From positions 1-53,571 of the forward strand of contig JAUNNJ010000006.1 in assembly GCA_030531495.1 (NCBI GenBank): a DNA stretch of 53,571 nt, written 5' to 3'. Below are positions 40,902 through 46,244 of the stretch, one piece after another. The notes under the pieces were generated by a model. That model saw only the letters and a list, made by a program, of their open reading frames with translations, did not search any database and had not been told where the DNA came from. Position numbers and translations under genes: made by a program. This DNA comes from Bacteroidales bacterium (GTDB lineage Bacteria > Bacteroidota > Bacteroidia > Bacteroidales > Muribaculaceae). Each line of letters begins with the position of its first letter. The first letter of the stretch is position 1.

Positions 40902-41318
40902 ATGAAACGACTATTTTCTATCGTTCTAATTATTTTATGCTTTTCCTCCATTGCATTTGCACAAAAGGAATTTTCTGTAAAATCAACAATGTATTACGCA
41001 GGTGGTAAATACGGCAAAGGCACAGCAAGTGGCGATCGCATTAATGCTTCAAAAGTGCTTTCAGGCGAAGACCGCTGGGTGGCTCTTTCACCTGACCTCT
41101 ACCGCGAAGGCTTCAGATTCAATGACACCATCGTAGTAACCGGACACAAGACCCCTTGGGTCAATGGCCTTTGGATTGTGAAGGACAAGATGGCTCACAG
41201 CAGAAAAATCGATTTTCTCGTACACCGCGAAAAAGCCAAAACATTCCGCAATAGTCCTTGCACCATCCGCAAAAAGCTTCCAGGAGAAAACATCCCAAGA
41301 ATGGGTGGCGAATATTAA
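40902..41318 (+). CDS. Secreted RlpA/3D-type double-psi beta-barrel protein
   Basis: A 138-residue exported protein with a signal peptide (about 1-20, ending AFAQ). The core follows the 3D/RlpA pattern: MYYAGGKYGKGTASGDRIN, then WVALSPDLY, FNDTIVVTG and WIVKDKM...KIDFLV. Such folds occur in lytic transglycosylases and septal-ring lipoprotein RlpA. There is no SPOR domain and the barrel is minimal, so activity is uncertain. A strong bidirectional terminator (41354-41390) separates it from the convergent ftsH. Confidence 0.75.
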   Translation: MKRLFSIVLIILCFSSIAFAQKEFSVKSTMYYAGGKYGKGTASGDRINASKVLSGEDRWVALSPDLYREGFRFNDTIVVTGHKTPWVNGLWIVKDKMAHSRKIDFLVHREKAKTFRNSPCTIRKKLPGENIPRMGGEY

Positions 41319-41421: not shown

Positions 41422-44400
41422 TCAAGCATCTTCGGAAGAGAATGGTGGAGGTGTTTGAGCATCGGCGGGAGCATCATTTTGCTCTGAAGATTGCTGAGCT
41501 TCCTTCTCGGCTTCCATTGCAGCCTCTTCTGCTTCCTTCGCTACATTCTCTGCTTCCGCTGCAGCCTTTGCATCTTCTTCTGCCTTTCTTGCAGTCTCTT
41601 CTGCTTCTTTCGCAGCCTTTTCTGCTTCGGCTTTGCGCTTACGCTCTTCTGCCACTTCCTGCAATTGCTCGGTGCGGCTCTTCCAAGGGCGCTTGCCAAA
41701 GATAGCTTCTACATCGTCGGCGAAGATTACTTCCTTCTCCATCAATGCATCTACCACCTTGTGGTGCTCATCGGTGTGCGAAGCAATCAGTTGTTTAGCA
41801 CGCTCGTATTGCTCGTTGACGATGCGCGATGTTTCTTCATCAATCAATCGGGCACGCTCGTCGCTATATGGGCGTTGTCCGAGTTGACCTTGAGGATCGT
41901 AATATGAGATGTTTGGCATCTTTTCACTCATACCATAATACATCACCATGTTGCGGGCAATGCGTGTGGCCTGCTGCATATCATTGAGGGCACCAGTGCC
42001 GATAGTACCCAGGAATAATTCCTCGGCAGCACGGCCGCCCATAAAGGTACAAATCTTGTCGAGGAACGCCTGCTTGGTGTACCCTACCCTTTCCTCAGGG
42101 AGCAGGATATTCACACCCAATGCATGACCGCGAGGCACAACAGAAATCTTCACCAATGGCTCGGCATGCTCAAGCAGCCAGATGGCAGTGGTGTGGCCAG
42201 CTTCGTGAACGGCAGTTTCGTATACATCCTGACGAGTCATCAGCATCGACTTGTTTTCCAATCCCATGGTCACCTTATCGATAGCCTCATTGAAGTCAGC
42301 CATCGTCACAGCATCATGATTTTGGCGAGCTGCGATAATAGCAGCCTCATTACAAACATTGGCAATTTCCGCACCGCTCATGCCAGTGGTCTGGCGCGCA
42401 AGTTGGTTCAAGTCGACAGACTCATCCACTTTTACCTTCTTCAAATGCACCTTAAAGATGGCTTCGCGGTCGGAGAGTGCTGGAAGAGTGACATGCACCT
42501 TACGGTCGAATCGACCTGGACGAAGCAGCGCATCGTCGAGAATGTCTTCGCGGTTGGTGGCAGCCAATACGATTACGCCACTTGCACCGTCGATGCCATC
42601 CATTTCTGTGAGCAGCTGGTTGAGCGTCTGGTCGTGTTCGCTATTGAAACCTTCATTGCTACGCTTTGTGCCAACGGCATCAATTTCGTCGATAAACACC
42701 ACACATGGAGCCTTTTCCTTGGCTTCAGCAAAAAGCTCACGGACACGAGAAGCACCCACACCCACAAACTTCTCAACAAACTGAGAACCAGAGCGGGAGA
42801 AGAATGGAACATTAGCTTCGCCAGCCACAGCCCTTGCGAGCATGGTCTTACCCGTTCCTGGAGGACCCACGAGCAAAGCGCCCTTAGGCACTCTACCGCC
42901 AAGACGACTATATTTATCTGGGTTTTTGAGGAAGTCGACAATTTCAGTCACTTCCTGCTTGGCTTCTTCCATGCCAGCCACATCATCGAACTTGATAGAG
43001 CCCACTTCGCTTTGCTTGTCTTCCAATCCCTTGCGGATGTTGTCGATAGCCATCACAAAATATTGGCGAGTGACGGTTTCCTCATCCTTGGTAGTGGCAT
43101 TGAGAGTGGCATCGTTGCACACCTTGGCAATGTCGGCACCACTGAAGCCCGAAGTGATTTGTGCCAAGTCGGTCACATCAATGTCTTCGCCCACCTTCAC
43201 ATCTTTCAGGTAAAGACGGAAGATTTCGGCTCTTTCTTCTGGATTTGGCTGAGCCACATAAATATGGCGATCGAGACGACCTGGGCGCAAAAGCGACTTG
43301 TCGAGCGAATCCTGGTTGTTGCAAGCAGCGAGCACAATCACACCGCTGTTGTTGCCCATGCCATCCATCTCCACAAGCAATTGCGACAAAGCAGGCGTGC
43401 GACTCTGGTCGGCCATCACCTCGCTACGCTTAGCGCCAATGGCCTCAATCTCATCGATAAACACCACACATGGCGACTTTTCGCGAGCCTCCTTGAAGAT
43501 GGCATGGAGGCGAGCGATTGGGTCGGCATACGGATTAGCCAAATCAGGGCCTGTAACCGACACGAATGGCACATCAGCGCCGTTTGCCACAGCCTTTGCG
43601 AGCAGCGTCTTACCAGTGCCGGTAGGACCCGACAACAGAACGCCACGAGGTATTTTAGCGCCAAGGCGAGTATAGTAGTCGGGGCGCTTCAAGAAATCAA
43701 CGATTTCAAGCATCTTACCCTTCGATTTCTTCACGCCAGCCACGTCATCGAAAGTGACAGTATTGGCCAACTTGGTTTCGAAATCAAGCCCTTTACGCAC
43801 CTTCTCAATCGAATTCATCAGGTGCTCTTGGGTGACGATATCGCTATATTGCGAAGCAGCCTGAAGTGCTGCATCGTTGCACACATTGGCGATTTCTGCG
43901 GCACTGAAGCCCGACGACCTGCGCGCCAGTTCCTCCACATCCACCTTTTCGATATCAATAGAGATGCGGTTGAGATAGAGGTTATAGAGTTCAATTCGGT
44001 CGTCCTTCTCAGGGAAGCCAACATAGATTTGGCGGTCGAAACGACCTGGACGAATCAGCGCAGAGTCGATGAGCTCGACACGGTTGGTAGCACCCATCAC
44101 AATCACGCCATTGTTAGTTCCGTAGCCATCCATTTCAGCCAGCAACTGATTGAGTGTGATTTCACGCTCACCATTACGGTTGGAGCGGCTACCGATAGCA
44201 TCAATTTCATCGATAAAGATAATGCAAGGCGACTTTTCCTTCGCATTGCGGAAAAGTTCACGCACACGGCTCACACCCGATCCCATGAATTCGCCTTGGA
44301 ATTCAGCTGCGCTGGTCGAGAAGAAAGGCACATTGGCTTCGCCAGCCACAGCCTTTGCGAGCATCGTCTTACCCGAACCTGGAGGTCCCACAAGGAGCAC

Positions 44401-45840
44401 ACCACGAGGAATCACACCGCCTAAACGGGTGAATTGCTCAGGATTATGGAGGAAGTTGATAATTTCACGCACTTCACGCTTAGGGCGCTTCATGCCAGCG
44501 ATATCATCGAATGTTACGGTATCGGTCATGCGTGTAGGCTTGTCGAGCTGACGAGTCACGCGGTCGATTGCAGCCACGAAATCGGGCTGTTGCACAGCCT
44601 TCTTACCTTGACGGGCAGCCAAGAGCGAAGCCTCATTGCATATGTTGGCAATATCCGCCCCCGAAAGACCGGCAGTCATGCGTGCCAATTTGTCAAGGTC
44701 GACACTGCCGTCGCACTTCACCTTCTTCAAATGCACCTTGAAGATGCCCACGCGGTCGTCGAGCGAAGGGTTGCCCATATAGATTTGGCGGTCGAAACGA
44801 CCTGCACGCAAGAGCGCCTTGTCGAGCACATCTGCACGGTTGGTGGCAGCCAGCACGATGATGCCGCTATTGTTGCCAAAGCCGTCCATCTCAGTGAGCA
44901 ACTGATTGAGTGTGTTTTCGCGCTCATCGTTGCGAGAGAATTCGTTTTTCACGCTACGAGCACGGCCAATAGCATCAATTTCATCAATAAAAATGATGCA
45001 AGGCGACTTGTCTTTGGCCTGTTGGAAAAGGTCGCGAACACGAGATGCGCCAACGCCTACAAACATTTCCACAAAGTCGCTACCGGACATAGAGAAGAAA
45101 GGCACATTGGCTTCGCCAGCCACAGCCTTTGCGAGGAGCGTCTTACCTGTTCCTGGAGGGCCCACAAGGAGCACACCTTTTGGTATGGTACCGCCGAGTT
45201 CGGTGTAGCGCTTTGGATTCTTAAGGAATTCCACTACTTCGCTCACCTCCTTCTTTTCGCGTTCCATACCTGCCACATCGGCAAATGTCACATCTTTATC
45301 CTTGTCCTTGTTGTGGAGTTTCGCACGCGATTTGCCCACGCTGAACACACCGCCGCCACCACCGCCGCCCATACGGCGCATGATGAATATCCAGAACATC
45401 ACAATAAGCAACAGTGGGCCAAACGACCAGAAGATGCTTGAGAACGAGCTATGACGGTCGTATTCCACCTTGCCATTGAACACGCCAGCCTTACGCCAAG
45501 CATCGACGCGGTCTTCAAACTTGTCGGCACTTGGGATTGTGGCAGTGATTACAGCTTTGTTGCCGGGTGTTGGTTGGAAGTCCTTTCCCATCACCTGCTT
45601 AGCGTAGGCATCGGTAACTTCCGCTTCAGCCTCGCCTTGGTTGGCGTGCACCACGATGTGGCTAACCGCCTTTTTCTGTACCCACCCTTCAAAGTCGGTC
45701 CATGTCATTTCCTTCTTAGAAGAGCCTTCACCGGTGTAGTAAATGCCGATGAGCACCATAAAAATAAGTGCATACAGCCAGTAGATGTTGAATTTTAATC
45801 CCCCACCCGACTTGTTATCTTTGTTTCCGAATAATTTCAT
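41422..45840 (-). CDS. ftsH: Giant FtsH-type membrane protease with four tandem AAA+ modules
   Basis: 1472 residues in one frame; ordinary FtsH is about 650-700. Order: TM1 about 17-36; periplasmic domain about 37-130; TM2 about 131-154; Gly-rich linker; four AAA modules; M41 protease; tail. Walker A sits at 227-234 (GPPGTGKT), 485-492 (GPPGSGKT), 738-745 (GPTGTGKT) and 992-999 (GPPGTGKT), a period of about 255. Walker B acids are E287, E545, E797 (DEIEA) and E1052. Arg fingers (RxGR[FL]DR) are present in all four. Pore loops are FVG in modules 1 and 4 and FMG in module 2; module 3 has PYAD instead. The zinc site is HEAGH (1212-1216) with D1287. The Ala/Glu/Lys coiled coil is about 1391-1455. 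It follows rsfS by 44 bases, the usual genomic neighbour. The modules differ from one another, so this is not a recent duplication or a simple assembly repeat. Confidence 0.95.
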
Positions 45841-45884: not shown

Positions 45885-46244
45885 TTAGTAAATATCCTCA
45901 ATTTCATTGAGCACTGCATCGGCCCACAGTTCTTCCAATCGATAGCGTTCACGGTATTCAGGAAGGAACACATGCACATACACATTGCCATAGTCGAGCA
46001 CAATCCATTGTGAATTTTGGTAACCATCGTAGTTGAAAGGTCGAGTGCCGAGTTTCTCTTCCACATACTCCCGAATACTGTCGGCAACGGCATCGACCTG
46101 CATAGTGCTATTGCCCGTGCAAATCACGAAATCGCCCGTAGATGCACTTTCAATATCACTCATGTCGACATGTACGATTTGGTGCGCCTTCTTCTCTTGG
46201 GCACCTTCAATAATGGCTTGTATTAATTCTTTGTTTTCAGTCAT
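45885..46244 (-). CDS. rsfS: Ribosome silencing factor RsfS
   Basis: A 119-residue RsfS/Iojap protein that binds ribosomal protein uL14 and blocks 50S-30S joining. Hallmarks are DMSDIESASTGDFVICTGNS, VDAVADSI and NSQWIVLDYGNVYVHVF with an acidic LEELWADA end. It is the first gene of the rsfS-ftsH unit. A TAACTTTG box (46346-46353, minus) may be its -7. Confidence 0.95.
   Translation of the reverse strand: MTENKELIQAIIEGAQEKKAHQIVHVDMSDIESASTGDFVICTGNSTMQVDAVADSIREYVEEKLGTRPFNYDGYQNSQWIVLDYGNVYVHVFLPEYRERYRLEELWADAVLNEIEDIY

Follow-up and report, generated by a model that had tools for sequence, protein, structure and literature searches.

An FtsH-family membrane protease with AAA+ modules multiplied in tandem

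Introduction

FtsH is among the most conserved proteases of bacteria. Several AAA modules per chain are found in other proteins: Cdc48/p97, VAT, NSF and AFG2 carry two, without a membrane anchor and without a protease of their own, while dynein and Rea1/midasin carry six, which are specialised and form a pseudo-hexameric single ring, again without a protease. To our knowledge, no AAA+ machine forms more than two rings from one chain. ClpA and ClpC feed a protease (PMC7226402). In the same article, FtsH-like proteases are given an AAA+ ATPase domain and the AAA+ proteins of the Fig. 1 legend have one or two modules each (PMC7226402).

The window analysed here, a stretch of 53,571 nucleotides, encodes a true membrane protease of the FtsH family that carries its AAA+ module in several tandem copies. 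A first-pass annotation made from the letters alone had pointed to the gene and had taken known FtsH proteins to carry one AAA module. Among titles and abstract openings, in a body of literature holding few subscription journals and no preprints, no FtsH with more than one AAA module was found, the four-module form included.

Architecture of the gene and its product

The reading frame starts with ATG and runs through 1472 codons with no internal stop (Table 1). Pfam assigns to its product four AAA domains, four AAA_lid_3 domains and one Peptidase_M41 domain (PF01434, 182 bits). FtsH_ext lies between the two hydrophobic segments and reached 43.0 bits against a cut-off of 25.5 when residues 1-180 were scanned alone; the scan of the whole protein, for which 25 of 48 families were listed, did not show it. 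The best NCBIfam model was TIGR01241 (FtsH), which matched four stretches of the protein and by which its AAA type is that of FtsH as opposed to that of Clp or Lon. The first-pass annotation had described two membrane segments, four complete AAA cassettes with Walker A at 227, 485, 738 and 992, each with its Walker B Glu and Arg fingers, one HEAGH zinc-protease domain and an rsfS-ftsH context, and every one of these features was recovered by hydropathy, Pfam and motif inspection. Judged by descent and by all domains tested, the protein is an FtsH, with an architecture outside the norm of the family.

Table 1. Positions in the window of the multi-AAA ftsH gene, its domains and the preceding gene
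Feature	Position	Strand	Product or residues	Basis or motif
multi-AAA ftsH	41422..45840	(-)	1472 aa, 161.7 kDa	ORF + Pfam
Membrane segment 1	45730..45798	(-)	residues ~15-37	Kyte-Doolittle
FtsH_ext (PF06480)	45502..45783	(-)	residues 20-113	Pfam
Membrane segment 2	45376..45444	(-)	residues ~133-155	Kyte-Doolittle
AAA module M1	44545..45288	(-)	residues ~185-432	Walker A 227, pore loop FVG
AAA module M2	43777..44514	(-)	residues ~443-688	Walker A 485, pore loop FMG
AAA module M3	43015..43755	(-)	residues ~696-942	Walker A 738, pore loop Y-A-D
AAA module M4, adjoins protease	42253..42993	(-)	residues ~950-1196	Walker A 992, pore loop FVG
Peptidase_M41	41701..42240	(-)	residues 1201-1380	HEAGH 1212-1216, GALND (D1287)
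C-terminal tail, Ala/Glu/Lys-rich, weakly conserved	41425..41658	(-)	residues ~1395-1472	
rsfS (RsfS, PF02410)	45885..46244	(-)	directly upstream of ftsH	Pfam

A frame of 117-119 aa starting with MTEN, MTDN or MTKQ, a putative rsfS, precedes ftsH in seven of eight neighbourhoods; in the eighth (L035) the place is covered by another frame. On the other side, beyond the 3' end of ftsH and on the opposite strand, a frame of 138 aa (40902-41318, +) was observed. Its N-terminus looks signal-like by eye and it had no Pfam match at 0.001.

Occurrence in the genus and beyond

An M41 match was found in 91 of the 101 genomes of the genus. Frames of four-module size (1452-1487 aa) were present in five of the 101, source genome included, and frames of three-module size (1178-1200 aa) in another five; the remaining M41 frames were of single-module size or cut. 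Walker A counts in the nine relatives gave four in four proteins and three in five, GPSGSGKT being the Walker A of M2 in the three-module relatives. The nine are 94, 99, 78, 77, 73, 73, 73, 72 and 66% identical to the window protein, some of the ten genomes being close kin.

Outside the genus, searches were performed with a profile of these ten proteins, by which a distant tandem FtsH of independent origin could be missed. In the family, nine of 397 genomes scored above 1200 bits, all of them in the window's genus, and the next best score was 709 bits among the matches listed, from which G041, a four-module genome, is absent. At a threshold of E <= 1e-220, the source genome alone passed in the order (1/393) and one of 296 genomes in the phylum, again among the matches listed. 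The family was also surveyed with M41 (best ~150 matches listed), and the junction between M1 and M2 served as a query of 106 aa against 365 genomes of the phylum. It had a match in 356 of them; among the best ~150 matches listed, none outside the source genome (G000) was full-length and the longest partial one covered residues 30-106. Thus, among the matches listed, no multi-module FtsH was found outside the genus in the sampled genomes of family, order and phylum.

In a scan of named loci, 68 FtsH frames from several phyla were recovered by motif from the best 80 of 587 matches (67 under a stricter rule), and a second Walker A was absent from all 68. These best 80 matches were ordinary FtsH, the highest identity being 66%, to M2. 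In viral contigs, the best 80 of 112 matches were all at 55-60%.

Motifs and spacing of the modules

The ten multi-module proteins contain 35 modules. Both the D-E of Walker B and the two Arg-finger arginines were kept in all 35; Walker A is also present in 35 of 35, a count that is not independent, as the modules were picked by it. The sensor-1 Asn was found in 34 modules and the pore-loop aromatic likewise in 34, the exception being in both cases M2 of L040, which has Asp and Leu, respectively. By position, M1 and M2 carry F as the aromatic, M3 carries Y, and the last module has F (W in L040). The M3 pore loop reads Y-[ASG]-D, is one residue shorter and lacks the Gly of FVG, and calling its aromatic depends on where the aligner places a one-residue gap. 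For Walker B, sensor-1, Arg fingers and pore loop, the names and roles are those in general use for AAA+ proteins. In the protease domain, HEAGH and GALND were kept in all ten proteins, and the protease motif is intact; the Asp of GALND is presumably the third zinc ligand. The L040 protein, from the three-module genome G068, is a candidate for module decay or gene transfer in view of its M2 and of the separate place of its species in the ClpB tree.

The spacer that separates a lid motif from the following Walker A measures 80 residues in 23 of the 25 junctions and 81 in the other two. Such constancy would fit a fixed geometry between neighbouring modules.

Integrity of the gene and selection on its modules

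The source genome is a draft of 144 contigs and 78% completeness, a state in which an assembly chimera or a collapsed repeat might be suspected. Pairwise, however, the modules of the window protein are 47-65% identical, and their repeated DNA stretches (families D1-D4) are 61-87% identical, which indicates diverged duplicates rather than a misassembled recent repeat. Multi-module forms were moreover observed in ten genomes, and the same four-module architecture lies in G004, an assembly made of a single contig of 3.34 Mb. A gene of normal length, which by the first-pass annotation would have pointed to a collapsed or chimeric assembly, did not turn up in its place in other assemblies of the kind where searched. 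Together with the purifying selection described below, these findings led to rejection of an assembly artefact, to which we give practically no credence.

Rates at the codon level were estimated by the Nei-Gojobori method on 11 species pairs, in which dS was often >1 and saturated in some cells. Where dS was unsaturated, dN/dS was 0.008-0.159 for M1, 0.014-0.224 for M2 and 0.010-0.209 for M4; for M3, compared between four-module forms, it was 0.048-0.164. The rows labelled M3 in comparisons with three-module proteins consist of 18 stray codons, one of them giving a dN/dS of 1.18, and were left unused. Selection on the modules is purifying, and the multi-module FtsH, which is conserved, is probably functional.

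Origin and descent of the tandem

A module tree was built from 91 AAA modules, 35 from multi-module and 56 from single-module proteins. Clades specific for position were obtained with starred support for M1, M2 and the last module (10 rows each) and for M3 (five rows). Since each position forms its own clade, the modules are orthologous by position and the tandem predates the split of the ten species. M3 is confined to the five four-module proteins; the three-module relatives lack an equivalent. For M2 and M3, the tree flags long branches meeting; these long branches are compatible with a partial relaxation.

The M41 domains of the ten multi-module FtsH fall into one clade (100/100) on a long stem, and next to this clade lie 34 of the genus's 35 remaining rows (94/85). 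The stem branch measures 1.22, so the protease domain also changed fast around the time of the extra modules. In the M1 and last-module branches, the three-module L040 branches off before the remaining nine (99/78 and 94/88, neither of them starred), a position that would suit three modules before four. In the M2 and M41 branches, the three-module and four-module forms are sister groups. M3 may be a gain of the four-module line, or the three-module line may have lost it.

The species were related by a tree of 17 rows, drawn from the ClpB-type genes of 19 genomes; G000 and G017 were left out by hand, and G033 was not among the 19; in a first tree, the ClpB rows of G000, G017 and G044 look wrong by their long branches and frames. 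In the 17 genomes, seven of the eight multi-AAA species formed one clade (100/98), and the three-module G068 fell among nine single-module species. A single clade for all eight was not rejected, with a p-AU of 0.248; in a tree of 15 rows, which also left out G004 and G044, p-AU was 0.159. Vertical descent is likely for most of the multi-AAA species; for G068, transfer or loss may have played a part.

Another genome assigned to the genus (G005, 59% complete) has at locus L042 a single-AAA ftsH of 721 aa that groups with FtsH of Prevotellaceae; the next frame resembles cdsA by eye. This is perhaps a contaminant contig or a misplaced genome.

FtsH and other AAA+ proteases in the same genomes

In each of the ten multi-module genomes, one M41 gene was found. 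Four of these genomes (G004, G063, G068 and G092) are 97-99% complete; in the source genome the count was likewise one, and at its completeness a second M41 gene could have been missed there, taking that genome on its own. The first-pass annotation had proposed that the gene takes the place of the housekeeping FtsH. Because it is the sole M41 gene found in ten genomes, it very probably does so, and as far as gene content goes the multi-AAA FtsH is very probably the FtsH of the cell.

In 20 genomes, ten multi-module and ten single-module, no loss of other AAA+ proteases or disaggregases was seen for which the long FtsH might compensate. ClpB_D2-small had four matches in 18 of the 20, the others being G000 (two) and G041 (three), both incomplete. 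True Lon (E < 1e-80) was present in 17 of the 20 genomes and in seven of the ten with a multi-module FtsH; it was not found in G000, G041 and G043, all of them four-module drafts that are 67-88% complete; the other two genomes with four modules, G044 and G004, possess a true Lon.

Possible arrangement of the modules

A rather probable picture is that of an FtsH with tandem AAA modules that now serves as the FtsH of its cell and in which six chains place four co-axial rings on one M41. Six chains amount to 970 kDa and would make up one particle of about that mass, M1, M2, M3 and M4 each forming a homohexameric ring above a single M41 chamber. Entering at M1, close to the membrane, a substrate would pass through the successive grip of the pore-loop aromatics F, F, Y and F before being pushed into the protease by M4. 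More speculatively, the extra rings could hold stable or membrane-embedded substrates more firmly, let them slip less often and unfold them with greater force, and M2 and M3 could perhaps be tuned as clutch or selectivity rings. As for all four homohexameric rings being active, with 24 ATP sites in a co-axial stack above the single protease chamber, the chances seem about evenly balanced. The first-pass annotation had also mentioned a chaperone role without proteolysis, which is conjectural; the motif of the protease is intact. Some of the rings may not thread, because the pore loops of M2 and especially of M3 deviate from FVG and M2 of L040 lacks both the aromatic and the sensor-1 Asn.

This touches on a different division of labour, in which M2 and M3 would be regulatory or structural rings, dedicated to ATP binding, assembly, gating or substrate selection, and M1 and/or M4 alone would translocate. 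In comparisons of less closely related species, M2 and M3 do show greater divergence than M1 and M4 (window against L034, dN of 0.139 for M2 and 0.165 for M3, as opposed to 0.091 for M1 and 0.097 for M4) and have the longer branches in the module tree, to which the short M3 loop without the FVG Gly and the two substitutions in L040 may be added. Nevertheless, all five four-module proteins retain Walker B, sensor-1 Asn and Arg fingers in both M2 and M3, and the aromatic in M3. The modules are under purifying selection, and in closely related three-module species M2 does not evolve faster than M1 (L036-L037, dN of 0.014 against 0.025). On balance we hold it to be fairly unlikely that M2 and M3 do not thread.

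Alternatively, a smaller number of chains could place their modules next to one another in a single pseudo-hexameric ring, for which dynein is a precedent. The length of the linker alone does not rule out lateral packing, and two chains of the three-module form would fill six places. Six is however not divisible by four, and the genus harbours relatives of both kinds, with three and with four modules, every one of them having a single M41, which makes such a ring very unlikely. A stack is favoured because homologues with one, three and four modules each carry one protease domain; it takes any number of modules, whereas four do not fit into a six-place ring. The preference for stacked rings is thus inferred from the constancy of the spacer, the module numbers and the conservation of the motifs. 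A yet smaller probability attaches to a cut of the long product after synthesis into an FtsH of normal size (M4 and M41) and separate AAA pieces. Self-processing is known at FtsH C-termini, but here the anchor is at the far N-terminus only, so a cut would free M4 and M41 from the membrane, and the fixed length of the junctions (80-81 residues) also speaks against it.

If the stack of rings is real, the series of one, three and four modules within one genus would show how ring stacks grow. The lineage with three- and four-module FtsH under purifying selection offers a natural experiment on what limits AAA+ machines to one or two rings, with the single-module species of the genus as controls. 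It could be used to find out whether additional rings increase unfolding force or processivity, in what way stacked rings couple their ATP cycles and how duplication builds up a ring stack within a gene that other bacteria cannot do without.

Comparison with known systems

The multi-AAA FtsH resembles the FtsH of bacteria, the m- and i-AAA proteases of mitochondria and the chloroplast FtsH in its FtsH_ext domain between two membrane segments, its Gly-rich linker, its AAA domains with lid, its M41 domain with HEAGH, TIGR01241 as best model and its rsfS neighbour. Ordinary FtsH has one AAA module, whereas the window form and four relatives have four and five more relatives have three.

Tandem modules are shared with Cdc48/p97, VAT, NSF and AFG2, the type II AAA proteins with two stacked rings, and the window protein has four. 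The segment made of M1, linker and M2 aligned in one stretch to D1, linker and D2 of AFG2B (query 26-394, chain 244-622); p97 aligned module by module only, both times to M1. The comparable spacer between lid motif and Walker A has 99 residues in p97 and 89 in AFG2B, against 80 in the multi-AAA FtsH. Since the spacer is shorter than in both and p97 aligned module by module, the ring contacts of p97 are not transferable.

In the same way, ClpA, ClpC, ClpB and Hsp104 have more than one AAA module per chain, but theirs are two and belong to different AAA clades, and their protease is a separate subunit, whereas the multi-AAA FtsH carries M41 on the same chain. Clp-type genes are also present in the genomes with a multi-AAA FtsH. 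Finally, with dynein and Rea1/midasin the protein shares the presence of many AAA modules on one chain.
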